Assembly: GCF_964204645.1 (NCBI RefSeq)
Contig: NC_134025.1
Coordinates: forward strand, 4,779,001 to 4,843,000
Origin: Tubulanus polymorphus
Lineage: Eukaryota; Nemertea; Palaeonemertea; Tubulaniformes; Tubulanidae
Length of the DNA stretch: 64,000 nt
Reading direction: 5' to 3'
Shown piece by piece: positions 35,125 through 52,372 of the stretch (positions are counted from its first letter, which is position 1; the number at the start of each line of letters is the position of its first letter). A model generated the notes under the pieces. It was not told where the DNA came from and did no database searches. It was given only the letters and a program-made list of their open reading frames with translations. Both the position numbers and the translations under genes were made by a program.

Positions 35125-38100
35125 TTACTTCTTGAATTGAACGATGTACCTTAGACACACTTGGGCTTCATCATATACTATATACTCGTTGTACGCGAGA
35201 ATGTGGTAACAGTCATTGTTCTCTTGTTCGATTAGTTTTCCCATTGGCATCACAATTCCTGCGAATAAAAGCAGAATGTTTTTATAGCATGATTGTCTAG
35301 CCGAAATACCTTTATTAAGCCGAGTTCACCTTTGGCTCCTAAATCAACCGTACATTAGCATTAATATTAAAACATACCCGGTTTTATGGTAACATCAAAT
35401 GAAGGGTTGGGTTCTTGACGTCCTACGCCTTTGATACTGTCAAAATTTCCTTTCGGTATTTCAGATTCATCATCTAAAGGTTGTTTAAATTCTTTGATCT
35501 TTCCGAGAGCACCCTTGAAAACATCATATGCATACAATGTCAAATTGTATGAAAACATTTAGAAGCCAGTGTCACAGTTTAGTAACGTAACTTTGAACTT
35601 CTGGAGATAAGATTTCGCCATCTGGTACATATACCAGCATCTTCACCCGTCAAGGGATTCGAACCCACTACACTAAAGCTGTTCGCCGAACCCCTTGACC
35701 TCACGACTCGTTGGAGTCGTTACTAGCCGACCAGAATCCGGTCGTACCAATCACAGCGCTTGTAATAAACGACTTTAGGCTTCTATTGGTTTTCCCGTTA
35801 AATGGACCAATCAGCGAACGTTTTACCGAACAAGGAAGTATTTCGCAAATCGATATATGATGTCATGCGCAACAGCGCCAGTAATGAAATCACGCTTCGT
35901 GAGGCAAGGGGGCTGGTGGAAGCGAGTTCGGGAGTGATACCGGACCTGGCAAGCGAGGATGATATACCAGCTAGTTCAAAAACACCCGAACGGCTACTAA
36001 AATCTACATCTTGATTAACCTACGATATCAAACTACTTCCATTTATTGAATGAAAATGAATGTTATTCGTATATCTACCTCGCAAAGTAACATAAACTGG
36101 GTATCAGATTCTTCATTATAATTACGGCAGTAATATGAGCTCTTCTTGAATGTGTCAGCCAGATAAATACCCTGAAGAGGACAATTAATGAGAGAAACAA
36201 TGAAATAAATATTTGAATGTCCTTGTAGAGACATTTTTTCGTTTTTACATGGCGAGTTCACGCGTATATTCGTGATCACATCCATACCTTTCCGAACATG
36301 GCTCCGGTGCTGCCAACTTGAGGAGGAGCTATGAGCAATCCCCGCGTGAGTATACTGAGCAGATTAGCTGAACTACTTCCATGCCAGAGTAAGTGTCGAT
36401 TATTGCGGCCGCATTTTTGTAACCGTTCCGATTCACCCTGACGGCTGACTTTATATATTGCTTCCACGTTACTAGCTGCAAGTAACAAACGCAGAAATAG
36501 AATATCATAACGCGATAGAGGCTCAAATGAAAATACAATTCAAACAACTGAACATCGATATATACCTGGCATACTACTGTGGATATACTTGAGAATGTAT
36601 TGCGATTTCGGATCATCTTCAGACATGAGCTGAATTGTGCATCCCATACACTGGTAAATGTAATCCAATGGATTCATCTCTGATTCGAGTAAACGAAGAT
36701 CATATATCAATCATAAAATTCATCGGAAGAATTGATCGATGTGAAAACTCGATATTATTCTGCGATAACATTCAACAGTCAATTAAACACACCTTTCTGT
36801 CTATATTGCGCTGCCAATAACATCTTTCCAGCTTGTTCTAATTCGAGTAAGTTGGTAATTTTACGGACCTGGTCACGAATGAGGCTGTCATTAGTGAGTG
36901 GCCTCACTGTTGTGTACTCGTAATTATTCGTCGGAACCAAATGGTAATAATCATTACTCAGTTTGGCGATCTAGAAAATATGTGAACATCCGTTCAAGTA
37001 TTAGCCGTTCTATGTGCAAGATATTTCAAAGTGCTATAGATGTAACAAACCTCCTCATAAATCTGATGGCATTCTTCCCGAGTTAGTTTCTGTGTTTCCT
37101 GTCGATGATGATGGGCAATTTTTTCCTGAAGTGGCCTGAAAAAAAACCGACAACATATTCTCATCAAACGAAAGAACTTTTTAAACCATGTTTATAGTTC
37201 CCCTGACATACTGTATGAAATGAACACTTACTTGATATGTTCCAGAATTTCTCTGGCTTTAAGAAGAGCTTCTTTTTTTATTTTACCAAAAGGCATGTAG
37301 TCCTCATCAATGTCAAATGATTCGAGAGCTTTGGACAGCATATTTATATTTGTCTAAAAAAAGAAATACATTGTCTATTGCCGCCATGATTTCCGGTGCT
37401 CATCATTTACGTCATTTCCAACATGGATATACAGGTATGCAGATACCCTACAGGTTCATTAGGCATACTGACCAGTTCTTTGAATATTTCTTGAATGTGG
37501 TCGGGAAGGGTTGATTTCACATCAGACTGGAGGGATAATTTAACTTTGCTAACTTTCTGTCCTGGAACTTGGTCCTCTCTAGCAATGAGTCGGTACTTCT
37601 TTGGATGGTTTGTGAAACTGAAAAAATAATAATTGAGAACCAGCGCATAAGCACATTACCTGATAGATATTTTGCAACATAATCAGATTATTATCAGCTT
37701 TATTTCTGACCTTTTAACATTATTCCAGTCATTGCCAGTTTTCTCTTTGAAAACTTTGTGGAATTCTTTGATAGCTGGTTCTTTCGCGGGGAATGGCGTT
37801 TGCTGATACTGGCCAACAGGGTCACCAATTTTACCCCAACGAGTCATCAAAATGTACATGTCCTTTCCAAGCTGATGAATAACCTAAAGTAACCAAGTAT
37901 AAATAGGTAAATCATTTAGAGCCTCAAATCTACTGGTATGTAAAATCAATACCACATTCTAATAATGCATATCACTTAACAATACTGCTCTATACTCAAT
38001 ATATTTTACATCTCTCCATGTTTCAATTTCATACCTGCATTTTATAGAATACATAAAGCCCGAAGTGTTGCTGCACATCAACTTTAACAAGAACCGTATC

Positions 38101-41100
38101 AAACGGAATATTCTGTTCATCATCCGTAACAACTTCACTGCAAATCACAAAGAAGAAATTTTATCATGAGAAATTTTCAGACGTACAGGTTTCTTTCTAC
38201 TACGTCAGTACACCGTCAAGGAAAATGCTGAATCCATTTTGAAAACGTACCCATTTTTCTGCATGCCACTCATTGGATCGGGACAAATGGTCACAGTTTC
38301 GTTAGTTTCCATGGAGTTAGTTTCCAATTGTTGCAACATCGCCTCAGCATCAGCCTGGTAGTTATACACACGACCATTTGGAGGCATGATTTCAGTGACA
38401 CCTAACGGTTCAACACTGGGCTTATCCTAAAATCAAGTACAAACAAATTGAAAGAACATTACTTAGAATATGAGGAAATAGTTCAGCTCAGAGCTAACTT
38501 ACCCATTTATCCTTCTTGATTCCAGCAAGTTTTTGTAGCCCCTTGGCTAGGTTCGAAGCTCCTTTGATTAAAGCGTAATCAAGTGGTGTGAGGCCGTTTC
38601 GATCCTTGGTGTTCATGACGGCGCCATTCTCTACGAGCAATTTCAATAGCTCCACGTTGTCATACGTGCCGTCATCGAGAGGACACACTAAATGATGTAT
38701 AACAGTCCAACCCTGTTTGTCCTGAACGTTCAAATCCACTTTACTTTTCTTCGTAAATGGCTCAAAATTCAAGTCTATGTCTGAAAAAACAATTCCAAAT
38801 TCCGTTCATTAAAATATCATAACTTTGCAGCTGCCTGCAATAGTATCATATTTATTTTCAGTAGTAAAGAACAAATGAATACAAACCATCATCATCAATC
38901 TCTTCCTGCTCTTCTGTCGCCGCTGCTGCTGCTGCTGCCGCTGCCACTGGTTCACTTTTCAAATCATTGACTTTTCCAGCTAGGATACTTTCAGCTTTCT
39001 TCAACATAAATCGCCTCACTGGAAACATTGAAAAATTATACCTTAAACCTGCTTGTCAAAATACATTGAGTATGTGAGAATAGGACACAAGTATGAATTA
39101 CCTCTAAACGATGCCGAAGATGCCCGTCTCATCATAAACCGGCCGGTCATGGAATAGGAATGATCTAATAAAAGCTTCAAAATATCGATGTCATTCTGAA
39201 ATGAGAAACAATAAACATATAATTACATCATGAACTCGTTCGGAGGCAGAAAATGAATCAATAAATCTGTTGAAATTAGCTCAAAACGCCTTAATTTCGA
39301 CCGCAAAATCACATTGTATGATGGAGGATTGACTGATGTAAGCGAACAATTTATCAGGTTATGAGTTGAATCGTAAGAGATGTAATTTTACCTGACGCAC
39401 GGCATGCATAACTGGTGTCATTTTCGTTTCGTCAGCGAAGTTGATGCTGGCACCGAGATCGAGTAGTAGTTTAACGAGCGCGAATCGTCTCCAGCGTATT
39501 GCTGACACGAGCGGCGACACGCGAACGCAGCCCGTTTTCTGATGATAATCACGACTGAACGCGCACTGATCGACTGAGTCGAACACGTCCATACTAACGA
39601 ACGGATAGTCGCACAGAATGTCTACATTAGCACCTTTCATTATGAGTTTTTTACAGATGTTTACTGCCGTTTTTTCTTCGTCGGTCGCCTCGTGTTTTTC
39701 TTGTGGTTTTATTGCTTGTCTGAAAATATGATTCACGCGTGCATTAAGTTGTGGAATACAGATAATTCACAGTGAATTATTTCCACTTGGCGAGCCCGGA
39801 GTAAATTGAAGGAACGCTCTCAAGCAATCATTTTGGCTAAAGACTATTAGCCATCATCAGGCATACTGATAGTATGTCTTTAGCCGAAACATTGCTCGAT
39901 ATAAACATGTATATATATATATACATTCACTTCTATCCATAAACTTTTCATCTTTGGCTGAATTATTATGGGATTTCCCTCGTATATCGTTTGTTTATGT
40001 CCAAAAACCCACAGTGTTTGTTTATGTTACCGGAGTAGCCCCAGTAATAAAATCGAATGAACTATTAGTAATTATCACATTACTCACCTTCTGGGTTTTG
40101 TACGAGTTTGTTCCGAATGCTGCTTTAGATCCCAGAATGCTACCGCAAGTGGAGTTCTACCATAATTATCTTCTTCAGTAATAACACTTTCAGTAGATTT
40201 ATCTGTTAATATAACGAAAGGCAACTCGTGAAAAACCAGAGCATCCTCTTAATCTTAAAATTCCGAACTCTTCACTTACTGATAATGAATTCTACGAGTT
40301 CTTCGTTATGTTTCAACACTGCATATGTTAGTGGCGAACATCCGTGTTTATCTTTCAAAGAGACATTGATGCCACGATTGCAAAGAATTTCTGCAACCTG
40401 AAATATTTTCAACCAGATCGAAATAAAGACCGTTACCTAGATCGCCTTGTACGGTTGTTCTGCCAAATAATTTGAATTTCAACTATACCTTCAGTTGTAG
40501 TTCTCTATCCAATGAAGTAGACGTATACGCCAGAACGTGAAGTAAATTTTGACGATCAGAATTTATGCTCGATCCAGTCAGTTCTTTATCATCCTTCACC
40601 TTCTTCATGAGTCTCATCGCGAGGTGATACTTATGTACGCGCAGTGCTGACTGAAATCAGGCGTGAATTACCGTAAAATATGACTTAGAAAACAGGAGAC
40701 GTTGATACAACATCTATCAATAAATAATACTAACCTCAACACAAAAGATTAATGAAATGCCCATGTGTTTTAGCTGATCAAGTAATATGTATGTAACCCC
40801 TTGCCAATCCCTCTTTACAATCGCCTGAAAAATATACATCAGATATCATACTTGCAGCAACACTGTGAATTCATCGAAACGGTTTTTAGGCATTTTAGAG
40901 CTGAAATCAAATTGAAAGTACAGAAATCAAATTACCTGGAACAATGACAAAGTCGATACATTTGAAATGTCTGTTTGCTTGAGAGGTTTCCAAACTAATA
41001 TTTTCTCATCAGTCTTTTTCAACCTGGATTCTTTGGATGGTGAATCAATCTATGAGAATCGATGAGAACATTGTATTTTAATGTAAGGTGGATATTTCTT

Positions 41101-44100
41101 GTATTCAGTCAGTTTATAAAGTTAATCAGACCTTTAACACAGCTGAGCCCCACTATTTGTCAGCCTCAATTTCTTACCTGTTTTTGGGATACGATTACTT
41201 CTTTAGGAGGGTCAGTACTGTCCTTAGCATGAATAACGTCAACGTTGATATTGGCGTCTTTTTGAATGAGTGCTACAGCACAACTAAATGGTAAGAAATA
41301 GATCCGATAGTTAAATCGTAAACATGAAATATTCATGTACGTGGTCTATCATTTTTAAGCCTACCTTTTGTGACCCGCCAATACTGCAAGACCTACTGGG
41401 GTATTGCCATTCTTATCTTTACGGTTGATATCCGCTTTTCTCTGTAACAAATGCATGCAGCAAACCATTGCTCCATGTAAGGCTGCTCGGTGTAGAGGTG
41501 TGCTGCCAATTAGATCTTGCGAATCTATGTCTCCCGGTTTCATGTTCATCGTTACTGCACCGCATAACTCAATCGGATCCATATGAGCCGTGTTATCATC
41601 CCTAAAATACACATGTACTACAATGTACTATTTCAAAATGAAAACTTCCGTATAAAGGACTTTAAACATAAGTCAAGAACAGATTGACAGGACAAGAGTG
41701 GCCACTTTTATTTGACCTGCTTTTCTCCTCCTGACTAATCCCTGACATGCATGTTGTTTTCCCTGACATGATCTGCTAAGAATCCAATCAATTTACACTG
41801 TCCAATAAGTAAGACATAGATGGAAACTGTTTGATTTCACGTGCAATCTAGCAACCTCAACAAATTTACCCAGACTTTTTCAATGATAAGACTTTCCCCT
41901 AATTTCTAGGTAAGTGGCCGCCCTGATTGATAGAGTGAAAAGAAGTTATTCAGAAATTTTGTTAGAAATTTAAATACATGTTACAATCCACAGAGATTTC
42001 GGTCCACTGAAGGTCACCCACATTAAGCAGATAAATATGATAAAGAAAGATCAATAACTTCTAAGGTAAACTTACTCAGCATCCTGTATGAAGACAAAAT
42101 GTAATGGAAGTCGACCTTCTTTGTCTTTTTTTGACAAATCGGCGCCTTGTTCGATGAGATATTCGACGATGTCGGTCGGGGTGTCCGATCCTCCATCGTT
42201 ATACAATATAGCCAAGTGAAGAGGTGTTTGTGATTTATTATTCACGGCGTCGATCGTCGCGCCGTTCTCTAAAAGACATTTTATCATTGATAACGACGAC
42301 TCGATGTCGGATACATCTCCGACGGCTTCGTGCAACGCAGTCAACTGATCTCGACAGTCTCGTGCATTGACGTTCGCGCCTTTCGCGACCAACGCCTTTA
42401 CTACATCTGGAAGATTGTTTCTGAAACGATTTTGATGAAATAAAATATCAATATACGAAATACACAACGCAATGGTGCAATTTTCAAATTATCTCAAGCA
42501 CTTTCGGGGATAAATTAGTCAGCAGTGGAAGAGTTAAGTAAGTTTGACTGTATAACGCAGCTTTCCGTAAGCTTAGCTAATTAATAATAACAGATGAGTG
42601 ATTGACCAGAAAATAGATGATTATATTACTACCTGACAGCAAATATAAGAGGTGAAGACTTTCCATCTTCTTCCTCATCTATTGAACTCATATTTACTGA
42701 GGCCCCGTGTTCTATCTGAAACGAACATTCAACTCGATCAGTTTTATTCCGCGCATTTGAGGCTCTTAATCTAATTCTGATAAGTAAAGAATGATGTAAT
42801 TATACATACAAGAAGCAAAGCCTCAGTACTATTTCCTAACAGAATGGCATCGATAAGAGGCGTATGACCGGTTTGAATGGCATACGTGTCTAACTGAGGA
42901 TGATAACGCAAAATCATCTCTAAACCGGGACGCTTTTCACCGTACAATTCACCCTCAGATTCATTCTGCTGTAACATGAAGTGAACTGCCGACATTTTTC
43001 CTGAAACAACAAAATCAATAAGACTGAATGTAACATGTCTGATACAAAGCATCAGTGAGGCTCAAACCACAAGTTTTTCAGTTTTACGCATTGACACACC
43101 ATTGTCAACATATCTCTCCTTTTCTTTCAGTGGTACTGGTTCATCGTTGAATTTCTTTTCACCGACGACGCTATTGACATCGGCACCCATCAAATCGATG
43201 AGACCTTTGATGAATTCCCTGGCACAGTCAAGACCCTGCTTCGTTTCCTCTTCTGATAATTCTGAATCGGGCTACAAATAATTACATAGATCTTATAATG
43301 CCCGGTATTCGGAAATATTGAAACAAAACACTCAAACAAGCCAAGATACAGAACTGTAGAACTTACAGAGAATTGGCAATATTCCTCACAGGCTCGCAAT
43401 AAAGGTGTATAACCAGAATTATCAACGACCTTTGACATATCTTTCAGAGAGGTGAAACTTCCAGCTTCTTTTCCATCCACCTACAAATTTTTTTACCGAT
43501 TTTAAGAAATCAAAAATAAGGATATAAGCACTATTATGCGTGAAATTACACTTGAAACAGCTAATATGCATGAATTCACAGAGATACTTCAAATGACAGA
43601 GTTATCATTTCTAGTATAGTAATGATTTCCGTTTTTAATAGTACCTGCATGAGAATCTCGAGTAGCTGCATCATATCAGCAGATGTTGACTGGTGCGCCA
43701 TATGGTGAAGAACATTCCATCCATCTTCATCGGTAGTTGTAGATACGGAGCCACCTTTTTCAATCAGCAGCTTCACAAGTCCTGCGTTACCCTAAAGTCA
43801 AGACATAATCATATAGATTATCGATAATGAACAACTATACTTGTATAGTAGGCACAAGAATATCTTACGGTGTATAAAGCCAACATTGTTGGTGTTTTCC
43901 CTGCATTATTGATTTGAGTAGCTGAAGTTCCATTCTCAATGAAAATTTCAGCCATTTTCAAAGACACTTCTTTAGCCTTAAGGACTTTTTCATTCAGCTG
44001 AAAAGAACAATCACATGCGGCAATATGTTGTTTGAATACATATTTGTATGCCAATAATACATAACTAAAGGAATACTTACCCCATATCCGACATGGTTGA

Positions 44101-47100
44101 TAGCCAAATGATGTAACTGAAATCAACAAAAAGACCACATTTAGACTCAAGAGTACAGACTCTAGCTAGTAAAATCCTAGTTGGTCAAATAAATTCTTGG
44201 GATATTTCGTACCACATTATTATCGGAAACATCTAACAAAGTATTATCAGCTTTCTGTTCCTTAATCAGATACTCGACTTGTTCAAGTAGATCATCTTCA
44301 AGTGGACTACCAGCGGCCAACATCAACAGCGTCATACCTGCATCAAGTCATTTATAGTAATAAGTAATTCAATATCTCAGTGCTTATTCAAAGTAGATAA
44401 ATTGTCAGTTTGTTTACCATCATCATCTCTGAAATTAATATCGACTCCAGGTCTGCTGAGAAGCATCTCCAAAAGACCGGTATTGCCTTTCATGAATGCA
44501 ACGCCATGCGGATTTAACTAAAACACAAATAGTTAAGATTTTTATGGACAAGCAGAACACTTGGAACTCACTGTATAGAGTTATAGTTAATTAGCAAATC
44601 AGTGATGGATACTTGCCATACAAAACAAGAAAAGATTATTAGGGGATTTAGAAACGTCGAGAGTCTGTTTAATTACTTATCCCATTTGACAACAAAAAGA
44701 CAATTATTTTGGGATGGCCTGGTAGTTATTTTTGATTGTAATAAAGCTGCAAAACAAACCTTCCAATCATTGGTTGCATTGGGGTCGCCGTCAGCATCGA
44801 GAAGAACTTTCAGCCCGAAATACGAACCATACGCAACGGCGTAATGAATACAAGTATTACCGGACGAGTCGGCGTGGTTTGGATTGGCGCCGATGTGAAC
44901 CAAGTAAGACGCGACATTCGTGTGATTGTTCATCACCGCGTGCGTAAGAGCCGTACGTTTAAAACGATCTGAAAATCAACGGCAGAAGCAAAAGAGAATT
45001 AGCAAAATTCCTCACAAACAGGAAAGTTAACAAACATCTTTAACAGGGTGGCCATTTTATGTGATTTAATTTTTCCCTCACATCTAGGCTGTTTCCCCCT
45101 CTGCTAAGAATCCAATCAATTAACCGTCATATACATAAAGCATAGATGGACACAGGTTGATTACACTCAACAAATTTCCATTTTATTTTAGCTTTTTAAC
45201 AAAATTCCCCGACTTTTTCCCCGAATCCCAGTAAGCGGTCACCCTCTGTTTGAATACTAACCTTTGAATTCGACTATGGCTCCTCCTGATTGTACGAGAT
45301 ACTGTACCATGGCTAGATCACCTCGAGCTGCCGCGATCTGTAAACAATTCATCTTGTGACGAGCTGCTGATGCTGCCTTGTTTGCATCGGCTCCGTGCTT
45401 TAGAAGAGTACGAACGACATCCTAGAATACAAACATGACAAAGGTCAAATCTTTACCGAAAAGACTATTTTCAAATTCTAAATCGCGGGGCTTACCAAAT
45501 GACCATTCTCAGCAGCCATGTGAATAGCACATCTACCCGACCTGTCCATTTTATGAACGCCTCCAATACCAAATCTGTCATCTAATTCTGGACTGTTTCC
45601 TTTCTGTCGAGCTGCCACATCTATGTACAACAAATAGAAGTAACACTTTCAGCCTTATTTTAGTTTAGATCATCTGTCATTCAGAATACGGATTCCCACT
45701 GAGAACATCCAAAATATGTCTCAAAACTTCTATCTTGGCCCTTACTATCAAACATTACAAACCTGCTTTAGCCTTTTTAAGGAGAGCCTCTACGTTATGA
45801 GCACGGCCGTACTTGCACGCAATCATCAATGGCGTGTTTCCCTGCGTCTCAATTTCATCAGCACTCACACCCCTTAAATACAAATGAAACATCAAAGTTT
45901 AACGGATCTGAAAATATTCCGCATATTTCACAAAACAGATCATCTGTCCGGTAACAGACTGAAATATAAACTACCTTTGAAGGAGAAGCTCCATTGGACC
46001 GGGACCCTCACAAGTTGCAGCATAGTGAATCGGTCTCCAGTGCTTCTTATCCATGATATTGTACTCGGGAAGTATGGACATTAGAGTCGTCAAGTAACTG
46101 GCATTTGGATTGATGCAAGCGCAATGAATCGGAGTGATCTAAATTTACAGAAATGATATAGATGTCAAATACTGAAATAATACAAATTATAGCAAAGAAG
46201 ACATGTTTGGTCAGTAGGTAAGACTGATCAAAGGGTACATGTTTTTCCACTTACCCCATCATTATTGTAAGGTTTCTTCTTCACAGACGGAGATTTCGCC
46301 GGTGAAAGAGGCTCGTCATCATTTTTCAATACCTCGATGTGCAAGAAATTGAATCCGTGGCCCGCTTTGATAGCATCAGCAACCAAAGCAGCAGCTAGTT
46401 TCCGATTACCAGTTCGAATCACATTCACTATGTTATTTGTAAGAATGTCCTCCATGTACTGTAAAAATAAATGGAATTTTATAAATGTCGCGACATATTT
46501 CCACTAGTTTTGGGTCAGATGTCCAATTAATGATGATGAATTAAAAAATTAAACCTACAATATTCTCTCCATCTGATGACTGGGCCAAAGCTACGTCTAA
46601 TGTATCTTTGCTGATATCATGAGTGATTGCATCAACAAGAATTTGGGATTCTTCTAGATCAATATCCATCATGTTATCCTGATAAGACAGAAAAACAAAT
46701 GTTACACATGACACATTTTCAGTTATGTTATAATAACATAAATGAAAATTGATGAATGAATGAATTACCTTTGTAAGAGCGGCATTACCCTCTTTAGATC
46801 CTCGTCCAACAGTTAGAGTTCGCACACGTGGAACTCCGAGAGATCTTGGATCATAGCTAGAAATACATACAATATCCCAGTCAATATATTGATATGCCAG
46901 AGGGTCACCCAGCTTTACACCTGTTTAATAGGGTGGCCACTTTCCGCCAATTTACAAATCCCCTGAGAAATTTCTAGGTTCAAAATCATTAATTTTCAGA
47001 AACATGTGGTCAATAGCATTATCCGAATTCCCCGAGTTTTCTAGGTTTTCCAGGTCAGTGGCGCCACCCTGTGTAAGAAACTGGTATTTAGGGAGACACT

Positions 47101-49161
47101 AACCGCCCAGTGCTCGGTGTAGATAGTATATTTGTGGGTAATTTTACGCGTTTTCGGTCGTCATCATAAGATGCTTTCCACAATAATTCAATAGCCTTGT
47201 GATTTTCCATTCTGATTGCGATTTGTAGGGGCGTTACTTTTTCCTGAATGCTGTACTGAGGATTAATCTGAAATAGAAATTTGTAAGTGATGAAAATCTC
47301 TGGCATAAGACTGGACAAGAACATATAAGATAAGAAGAACATACCAAAGCAACATGATCTAAGTCTTCGATGAATTTTGTCAATATTTTGTTGTCCCTCA
47401 GCTTCAGTGCTCTGAACAGTAGTTTACTTGAAATGAATGATGATACAACTGGAACATTTTCCCTGAAAATATAAAATGCAGGACATAAGACCCCAGACGT
47501 GTGGAAATCATCCACAGAATTCTGCAGCAGAAGTCCATCTTTCATACCTGCTTTCATAAAATGGATCTTTCTCTAGAACCTTTATTCGTGGCCGCGGAGT
47601 CAAATTGATGTTCGGGTCTTTAGGCGTTTTCGCTGTTGCTGGGGTTGCTTTCAAAGGACTCGGAGTTTTTCCTGAAACAAATAAGATATACAAAATCATA
47701 TAATCTTTCAAAATCATATAACATATGAAATTCAACCTAAAAGCATGGATAAACACCTTTGACTGGTTTCTTCTTGTTGTCTTTTGTTGTTTTTGTAACA
47801 GGAGTGGTTACTTTTGTCGTTGGAGTCGCTTTAGTGGTGGCTACAGCCTTCTTCTTTTTACCACCTTCTGAAAATATACCAGCAGCATAAATATAGATGA
47901 CTATCAACCGTCACAACATTGAAAAGTGAGTTTAAAAGGAGCTTCGATGCTAACTCTTTGTTCTCCTTGGTCTCGTAGGCGTTACTGCAGGGGTTGGAGG
48001 CGGAGACTGACTTTTGCTACTGGTGCTGGCAACGATACCATTGCTGTCCTGTGACTCCTGCTTTTTCATCGCTTCTTCAAAAGTTTCTACAAACAAAATT
48101 GCAAACATGTTGGAATATATTCACATACTTTCTTCGAATCTAACTGTGATGAATAACTGTGATGATTTTTCATTGTCTCTCTTAGTTTTTCTCTCTCTCT
48201 CTTCTTTTTTTGCTTTTCAAGGGTGCTTGCTATAGCGGCCTTTTGGCCTTTGCTTGGCCCTCATAAGAAAGCCTTCTTAATTTTACTTTTGTTCTGTTTG
48301 TAAATATTCTTATAACATGCTTTCTTATGAAAAAAATTGAAATTGAATAACATACCAGTTAAATCAACTTGTATCCCATTTTCGACGTTGAGAGCTTTTT
48401 GAAGTATGAATTCCGTGCGCAATTTCTCTCGTTCCGGTAACTTGTACGTTTCTCTAGAGACATGATCCATGCGAACTGTGGTGATCACGCATTCCAATTC
48501 CGTCGTGTCGTAGAAATCTAATTTGTAAACGTCAGGCGGTTGCGACAATGACAGCCAGCGCACTTTGAAACTGCGAGTATTGCGATGTACATGCTGATTG
48601 GTTTGACAGAGGTAAAATCCACCTGGAAACATAGATTATTGAAAATATCTCATCTCCGCTAACAAAGTTATATCTAAAAAGGGCTTTACATCAATCAAGT
48701 GCCAGAGGCTTAAAAGTTTAACTACGATCAATATCATCGATAAAGGATCAATATTTACCAGACTCATTTCGAACTGCTAAAAATTTGCTTTTCTTGAAAA
48801 GTAATTCTTTGTCCTGGCTACGACTTTTAGGCGCAGCACCGAGTTCGATAGGGCTTTGGAACGGAGAACGCTGAACCTTCGACCTTTTGCTCGGAGTGCG
48901 TGGCTCCACCTCTACAGGTCGTTTTTGACGTCTCTGCAATAGTATAATTGAGACCATTTGCTTTTACAGTGTTTGACAAAAATTTAGAATCTTAACAAAA
49001 TGAAGGTATTTCTTCATCTTAATGGTTGTTTACAATTAAGCTAAGATTAAACCTACCTTTCTCGTATTGCTCGATGGACTGCTACCTTTTTTCATTGTGG
49101 CATCTGCAGCCGCAGAAGCATCTCTAGGGCTTCTTGTCGCCCGCGAAGGTGACTCATCCAT
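35125..49161 (-). CDS. Ankyrin-repeat, WGR-domain poly(ADP-ribose) polymerase, PME-5-like
   Basis: Giant multi-exon gene (about 45-50 exons, roughly 2,400 aa by my tally). The first coding exon is 49057-49161 (ATG at 49161). Ser/Pro/Lys-rich N-terminus follows, with a folded segment at 48356-48622 and Thr/Pro/Lys linkers at 47570-48090. Many ankyrin repeats (46.1-38.5 kb) carry motifs such as GNTPLMIACKYGR, SGNTCIHYAVAYGS, QTPLHLAILYNDGG and GSTPLHRAALHGA. A poly-Ala run is near 38925. The WGR domain (MTRWGKIGD) is at about 37.7-38.1 kb, then the PARP regulatory helices (37.6-36.8 kb). The catalytic domain is encoded by 36566-36650, 36288-36475, 36079-36171, 35378-35513 and 35125-35258. The H-Y-E triad is seen as LLWHGSSS, GIYLADTFKKSSYYC and AYNEYIVYDEAQ, so genuine polymer synthesis is expected. 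Architecture matches nematode PME-5 (tankyrase-like in name only; it has no SAM domain that I can see). Confidence 0.9.
35580..35790 (-). repeat. Possible tRNA-derived SINE fragment in PARP intron
   Basis: The plus strand reads GGGATTCGAACCC at 35654-35666; on the minus strand this is a textbook Pol III B box (GGGTTCGAATCCC). A loosely A-box-like string (TGAGGTCAAGG) lies ~38 bases upstream of it on the minus strand. It does not fold into a full tRNA as far as I can judge. Best reading is a SINE head or tRNA-like relic. Confidence 0.4.
35802..36014 (+). CDS. Intronic antisense ORF, weak DEK_C-like helix pattern
   Basis: A 70-residue plus-strand frame inside a PARP intron, more GC-rich than its surroundings. 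It begins MDQSANVLPNKEVFRKSI, then YDVMRNSASNEITLREARGL. That spacing resembles the three-helix DEK C-terminal type (xRKxIxDxLRxxxxxxxTxxxVRxxxE), but the match is by eye. The tail is Ser/Asp/Lys-rich. It directly follows the SINE-like sequence, so it may be part of a mobile element or an exonised fragment. No splice partner identified. Confidence 0.3.
   Translation: MDQSANVLPNKEVFRKSIYDVMRNSASNEITLREARGLVEASSGVIPDLASEDDIPASSKTPERLLKSTS
39821..39898. repeat. Foldback with hammerhead/Penelope-like GCCGAAAC motif
   Basis: Arms 39821-39844 and 39876-39898 form a 23-24-bp imperfect inverted repeat centred on GGCTAAAGAC/GTCTTTAGCC. The arms and spacer contain the strings AGCCGAAACATTG (plus) and CCTGATGATGGCTAATAG (minus). 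Both resemble the CTGATGA...GCCGAAACGTTG block found after the Penelope-like ORF at 58.6 kb, so this is probably a small relic of the same element class in a PARP intron. Confidence 0.5.
41695..41925. mobile_element. MITE-like element copy 1 (PARP intron)
   Basis: About 230 bases bounded by GAGTGGCCACTTTTATT on the left and AAGTGGCCGCCCTG on the right (imperfect inverted termini). The interior contains CTGCTAAGAATCCAATCAATT and CATAGATGGA, strings also present in copy 2. No coding capacity; non-autonomous DNA transposon inferred. Confidence 0.6.
45044..45246. mobile_element. MITE-like element copy 2 (PARP intron)
   Basis: Starts CAGGGTGGCCATTTTATG and ends AAGCGGTCACCCTCTG. It shares CTGCTAAGAATCCAATCAATT and the CATAGATGGACAC string with copy 1, and CCCCGACTTTTTCCCCGAA near the right end. 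Non-coding, about 200 bases. Confidence 0.65.
46930..47071. mobile_element. MITE-like element copy 3, shorter (PARP intron)
   Basis: Left end AGGGTGGCCACTTTCC, right end CAGTGGCGCCACCCTG; interior CCCCGAGTTTTCTAGGTTTTCC. Same terminal signature (CAGGGTGGCCA) as copies 1 and 2 but internally shorter and diverged. Confidence 0.6.
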
Positions 49162-50646: not shown

Positions 50647-52372
50647 TCATTGATTGGATATTTTTTCTTCACAGTTATCTATAGCCCCTTGAGCATCCAA
50701 TTTATAAAACATAAATAGTCCTTGAAGTTGAGCAGCACTGATATTCATTGCACAGTTCGTGATGCGTTTAGTGAACTCCTGAGCTCTGGATATTGACTGA
50801 TCAGGATAAAATCTCAAAAACATTTGTTCTATTTGATATGGAGAAGCATAGTCTATTTTCTGTCTCACGTCTACCCTTCCCGGTCGAATCAAGGCAGGAT
50901 CCAGCCTGTAAAAACACAAAACACAAATTTTTAAGAATAAGAGAAATTAGCTTTTGTCAAGAAAACTTATAAGCATATATTTCCTGTTTCTGACCTGTCA
51001 ATGTAATTTGTTGTCATGAATATAATTCGGGCCTCAGCTGAAGCTACACCATCTAGAGCGTTCAGTAATCCGCTGAAAGTCAATCGCGATAAACCTTGAT
51101 ACATCTTAGATTCTGAAAGTAAAAAGAAATGCGAATCACATGTGGACTTTTGTCCTTTCTTATCAATTTCTGTAGGTATTGAATAATTCTTTGTCAGTTT
51201 GAGTGTCAGATTTTTCTTTTAAAAAAAACATGATCTTGAACTGTTTGATGTGCTCAGGTGTTATTTGATACACTGCATGCGGAATCCAGCACGTGATGTG
51301 TGCAGGATTTGGTTTGATTGAGAAACATGCATATTTCTTAGCATGACTTTAAGAGACATTTCAAAGATAATCTTCGAGTTGACCATCCCAATTTGCTTCT
51401 TACCTATTTCAGATTTTTCCTGATCCCTGCTGCTGAAAGCAGCATCCACATCTTCCAGTAAAATGATACTCTGTTGGGGTGCTACTGTGAGTAAATGGTT
51501 TAAGCGATCATCCGTCAAACCGCGTTCACTGAGGTTCAATACACAAATACCGTAATCCAGAGCACCTAAAAATGCAGTCGATATGAGAAAATAATTCAAC
51601 TGAAATAAGGAAAATTAAGAAAAAATAATTGTAACTAACCTGCTAATGCCATGATGAAGCTACTTTTGCCACAGCCGGGAGGACCATACAATAAATATCC
51701 CCTGCGGTATGGTATTCCTCTGTCCATGTACCATTTTGGATTGTTTATGAATTCAGTAACATCTGAATGAAGTTTCTCTGGAATATCCTTATCCAGTACC
51801 ACAGATTCTAATGGACGTTTCTTTCTGGGATAACCGAACTGTCTCCAATCACCACCCATAGCGGTGTACATGATTGTTTTGCCTTCTTGATGTTGCAAGG
51901 CCATTTGACGAGCGTATTCAAGAATTTCGAAATAAATAGTCCTTTTCATACCAAGCGTTGTCAGCGTAACAGTTTCCCAAGGTACACCGTGTTGAAAATC
52001 AACCATCTGTTTCTCGCGATTTCTTTCAACTTTGATGAAGTGGTTTTTATACCAGAAGAAATGTGTGCCCGGACTCGGTATGAAGTCAAAGTGAGTTGTC
52101 ACTTTGCCAGCTTCGCTCTGCTGGAATTTCGTTTCGACACTTAAATGTTGAGTTCTTGTTCCGTGTTCAGCGAGCCAATGTAACAACCATTGATAGCTTT
52201 TATCTTTACTAGGAACTTCCAAAGTAATCATACAGTGTCGCCGGAATAAAGTGACTCCATGTTGACCACCCTTTTTGAGAATGGCCAAAGCTGTACCAAC
52301 ACCAACAAGTCCAAATCCAGCACCAAAATATGGATTGTCTTTCAAAGATAGAATTAACTCAGAAAGTGGCAT
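50647..52372 (-). CDS. BCS1L: Mitochondrial chaperone BCS1 (AAA ATPase)
   Basis: Inner-membrane AAA ATPase that translocates the folded Rieske Fe-S protein for complex III assembly. Four exons (minus): 51640-52372, 51404-51565, 50995-51112, 50647-50905; total 1272 nt, 423 aa (human 419). A short N-terminal segment with a hydrophobic stretch ([19 protein letters not shown] plus internal targeting signal) is followed by the BCS1-specific domain ([20 protein letters not shown]). Next come Walker [12 protein letters not shown] (last part of exon 1), Walker [12 protein letters not shown], sensor motif [20 protein letters not shown] with its arginine finger, and a C-terminal helical lid. The start ATG is the first in frame; upstream sequence is non-coding. 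Confidence 0.97.

Follow-up and report, generated by a model that had tools for sequence, protein, structure and literature searches.

A predicted ankyrin-WGR-PARP gene of the PME-5/Clade 1A kind in the genome of the nemertean Tubulanus polymorphus, which also has a canonical tankyrase

The minus strand of the 64,000-nucleotide stretch of Tubulanus polymorphus DNA analysed here (the window, to which positions refer unless a contig is named) carries a predicted single gene, running from 49161 to 35125, in which a long ankyrin array is followed by a WGR domain, PARP regulatory helices and a PARP catalytic domain. We consider it very likely that this one gene encodes a giant ankyrin-type Clade 1 PARP of the PME-5/Clade 1A kind, and that the enzyme would act in the nucleus, be activated by DNA breaks and use its ankyrin repeats as a platform. 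The finding is confirmed as real and as an ordinary one, namely one more example of the published ankyrin-type Clade 1 PARPs.

The gene model was built by joining exons by hand from stop-to-stop frames and from the DNA of both gene halves. The predicted CDS comprises 49 exons and 7251 nt, and its spliced translation of 2416 aa has no internal stop. The ATG lies at 49161 and the end of the stop codon at 35125, exactly the start and end given in the original prediction. All 48 introns have GT-AG borders, with lengths of 74-565 bp and a median of 101. The sites at exons 8-9, 11 and 48 were picked as frame-consistent GT-AG pairs, and the exon 8/9 junction (CGC/GTAAAA ... TAAAG/CTGGGT, a slash marking the border) is doubtful, because a weak acceptor alone preserves the frame; it is the best frame-consistent option and affects few residues. 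Introns 8, 15 and 26 contain similar stretches, GGTGGCCACT...CTGG / GTGGCCACC-ended (46925-47090, 41640-41930 and 45060-45240), which resemble members of one family of short, non-autonomous transposons; the pattern occurs 5 times in the window with 1 expected, a weak excess, and the intron-8 copy is located at the doubtful exon 8/9 junction. The intron between exons 47 and 48 (35560-36040) carries a GTTCGAATCCC box-B-like motif, possibly part of a tRNA-derived SINE, and no tRNA was found there by ARAGORN. Upstream of the PARP gene, on the same strand, the frames at 50647-51218 resemble by eye a BCS1L-like AAA ATPase.

Exons 1-2 (48759-49161) encode the start codon and a basic low-complexity N-terminus with the NLS-like clusters RKRRQKR and KRSK, as read from the gene model and codon positions. 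They are followed by exon 3 (48356-48622) and by a Lys/Pro/Thr-rich linker containing KKGGKKKK in exons 4-6 (47548-48086). The ankyrin region occupies exons 7-37 (38503-47462, residues ~354-1855) and is made of ~20-26 repeats with non-repeat inserts between them: Pfam Ank_2 matches the 2416-aa protein with an E value of 2e-110 over 13 stretches, and a custom repeat HMM matches 26 ankyrin-like units, several of which are incomplete, in residues 354-1855. After the linker of exon 38 come the WGR domain (Pfam PF05406, E 1.4e-16, residues 1941-2020, 37614-38097), which was also recovered in the genome search, the PARP_reg helical domain (PF02877, E 8.8e-21, residues 2054-2204, 36654-37514) and the PARP catalytic domain (PF00644, E 3.8e-45, residues 2234-2415, 35131-36566). 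The scores of these four families are far over the Pfam cut-off, so chance is excluded. The catalytic triad is complete, H2265 (36383-36381), Y2299 (36165-36163) and E2397 (35187-35185) aligning with H862, Y896 and E988 of PARP1, and the last coding exon, exon 49 (35125-35258), contains both E2397 and the stop codon. Pfam HMM search and PARP1 alignment thus agree with the original prediction in placing ankyrin repeats, WGR, regulatory helices and an intact H-Y-E in one protein, in which Pfam detects no SAM, zinc finger, BRCT or PADR1 domain.

The passage from the ankyrin half to the PARP half lies in exons 37-38-39. Exon 38 (38251-38426, splice sites TTTTAG and GTACGT) is a linker without a recognised domain and the model is known from genomic DNA alone, two points that would suit two adjacent genes, one for an ankyrin protein and one for a PARP2/3-like enzyme, wrongly joined in the model. 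The frame is nevertheless open throughout these three exons; the two introns between them measure 76 and 113 bp and are bordered by standard donors (GTAAGT, GTACGT) and acceptors (TTTTAG, TTGCAG). Human PARP1 spliced onto the genomic DNA independently recovers the greater part of the exons in the C-terminal half, their borders being identical to those of the model, and misses only a poorly conserved insertion in the helical domain and the region near human residue 827. Ankyrin-PARP fusions have moreover already been reported from a nematode, a slime mould and a lancelet (PMC1266365, PMC2964712, PMC4245714). Because of the open frame, the PARP1 alignment and these fusions, we regard a wrong joining of two genes as very improbable; on the genomic evidence, the ankyrin, WGR, PARP_reg and PARP parts belong to one predicted gene.

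The placement of the protein outside the tankyrase lineage, proposed originally, holds on domain content (WGR present, SAM absent) and on the order of similarities, in which PARP1 comes first. When the WGR-to-catalytic half was searched against the PDB, PARP1 gave the best match (1e-70), before PARP2 (2e-43), PARP3 (8e-31) and PARP4 (3e-12), and no tankyrase catalytic chain was obtained at E 0.001. Identity in the catalytic domain is 39-41% to PARP1, 35% to PARP2, 32-34% to PARP3 and 29% to tankyrase. A divergent tankyrase, in which SAM would have been exchanged for WGR and the helical domain, could account for a PARP joined to an ankyrin array, and PME-5 itself was originally named a tankyrase (PMC4245714, PMC2491638). 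This reading is extremely improbable in view of the catalytic domain, which is closer to PARP1, and of a genuine SAM tankyrase in the same genome, whose catalytic domain is 83% identical to human TNKS1 (the TNKS1 reference being letter-for-letter identical to a PDB tankyrase-1 chain). The ankyrin half points the same way: a search with exons 7-22, which encode the opening part of the ankyrin region, ranks ankyrin-1, NOMPC, designed repeats and TRPA1 before tankyrase-1. Since tankyrase-1 stands well behind ankyrin-1, NOMPC and TRPA1, the array does not appear visibly tankyrase-derived. In a maximum-likelihood tree of the catalytic domain (208 columns), the branch of the ankyrin-WGR PARP has an aLRT/UFBoot support of 51/39, too low to fix its position, and the proposed membership of Clade 1 rests on the WGR and PARP_reg domains and on similarity scores, not on the tree. 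An intron identical in position and phase is shared once with the PARP2 gene of the same genome (after E923) and never with its PARP1 gene, too few positions for the fusion to be dated from introns.

The core of the enzyme was compared residue by residue with human PARP1, to which it is 36% identical across 428 residues from WGR to the catalytic domain. The equivalents of W589, L713, H862, G863, S864, Y896, A898, K903, S904, Y907 and E988 are kept. The substitutions are R591K, K633N, D766T (in the helical domain), R878L and Y889A, to which H826Y is added within a poorly aligned stretch; the "WGR" motif itself is W1977-G-K, the equivalent of R591 being K. Since the catalytic residues of PARP1 are kept, the protein should be catalytically competent; since the equivalents of R591, K633, D766, R878 and Y889 are changed, the allosteric relay between DNA binding and activity may work differently than in PARP1. 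H-Y-E alone is no proof of polymer synthesis, as PARP3 has H-Y-E and yet is a mono-transferase. The same five changes and the identity to PARP1 of just 36% would also be in agreement with a protein that acts as a scaffold and has a PARP part of weak activity, of mono-ADP-ribosylating activity or outside the control of DNA, a reading that we hold to be unlikely given that H-Y-E, K903 and the WGR tryptophan are retained. The C-terminal Leu-Trp tail was dropped as an indicator of HPF1 binding: the tails of PARP1 and PARP2 from the same genome, as read, also lack it.

The 89-residue segment singled out in the original prediction as folded and as a potential new domain corresponds exactly to exon 3, with phase 1 at both ends. 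The absence of a family match stood: no Pfam or NCBIfam family and no structural relative in the PDB (best E 1.6) was found, nor any second copy in the T. polymorphus genome or any relative in the prokaryote and viral contigs searched. The fold and the new domain keep the rank of suggestions, AlphaFold run on exon 3 alone, without an alignment, giving five strands and a helix at a pLDDT of just 43, too low for interpretation. A phase of 1-1 is what would be expected of a mobile module, yet exon 3 shares its phases with exons 4 and 5. It is possible that exon 3 is a new domain. More specifically, it could form a globular module not described before, possibly a small beta-barrel reader, which would mark the animal ankyrin-PARP branch and direct the enzyme to a specific chromatin or partner state, a tentative idea that we think somewhat doubtful. 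Exon 3 is the sole part of the gene able to add novelty.

The inventory of PARPs covered one 268 Mb genome and comprises PARP1 (C1:46-56 kb), PARP2 (C3:3.44 Mb, C3:3439500-3449400), PARP3 (C3:3.80 Mb), PARP4 with a BRCT-like stretch (C1:5.56 Mb), a PARP16-like gene (C5:21.07 Mb) and the canonical tankyrase with ankyrins, SAM and catalytic domain (C2:28.77 Mb, C2:28770000-28779500); an HPF1 gene was found as well. A second PARP2 copy with identical scores (C13:16873-21910), on a small contig of 244 kb, is probably a haplotype duplicate that the assembly left unplaced. The genome search gave one ankyrin-WGR combination, the remaining WGR matches being PARP1, PARP2 (two copies) and PARP3. Since PARP1-PARP4, the PARP16-like gene and a SAM tankyrase are present, the ankyrin-WGR PARP is additional and no substitute for tankyrase.

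The architecture itself equals that published for PME-5, as originally proposed. The kind of protein is not new: ankyrin/PARP domain shuffling was described in 2005 by Otto et al. for C. elegans pARTc (PME-5) and Dictyostelium pARTb (PMC1266365), Clade 1A was named and set apart from tankyrases in 2010 by Citarelli et al., who called the ankyrin, WGR, PRD and catalytic architecture unique to it (PMC2964712), and in 2014 Perina et al. surveyed ankyrin-type Clade 1 PARPs of C. elegans, lancelet, Dictyostelium and Saprolegnia (PMC4245714). Compared from published descriptions, PME-5 has, as here, WGR, PARP_reg and PARP behind its ankyrin repeats and no SAM (PMC1266365, PMC4245714), but C. elegans has no human-type tankyrase (PMC4245714), whereas T. 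polymorphus has one. The Clade 1A proteins, Dictyostelium pARTb/ADPRT3 among them, match by description in ankyrin, WGR, PRD and catalytic parts, with Amoebozoa, fungi and a ciliate as hosts (PMC2964712) and here an animal. Branchiostoma floridae likewise has an animal ankyrin PARP in Clade 1 and differs in the absence of a human-type tankyrase (PMC4245714), both kinds being present here. PARP1, human or from T. polymorphus, shares the WGR-PARP_reg-PARP core and is the top PDB match, but in the ankyrin-WGR PARP the giant ankyrin array stands in place of the zinc fingers, BRCT and PADR1 of PARP1. Tankyrases 1 and 2 share the combination of an ankyrin array with an H-Y-E PARP domain, but have SAM and lack WGR and the helical domain. 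WGR-PARP proteins of Myxococcota are 28-29% identical to the ankyrin-WGR PARP; no ankyrin repeats were found in the reading frames of four longer prokaryote PARPs, all from Myxococcota, and a viral scan gave no relatives of the PARP half.

Together with the PME-5 literature (PMC4245714, PMC2491638), in which ionising radiation induces the pme-5 transcript (PMC2491638), the basic clusters of the N-terminus suggest a mode of action. The protein would enter the nucleus by these signals, and its WGR domain would contact broken DNA ends and thereby release the brake of the helical domain on the catalytic domain, as in PARP1-3. The enzyme would then ADP-ribosylate itself and partners kept near by the ankyrin platform, which would serve for partner selection. 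One animal may thus have an extra, separately targeted PARP of the damage class next to PARP1-3 and tankyrase. Perina et al. suggest an overlap between tankyrase and ankyrin-type Clade 1 PARPs, the animals discussed having either one (PMC4245714). The coexistence of PARP1, PARP2, PARP3, a true tankyrase and an ankyrin-type PARP argues against simple mutual replacement, and a genome with both of the latter is a modest counter-example to this either-or pattern. The analysis also supplies a complete predicted gene structure for a family functionally known mostly through C. elegans.
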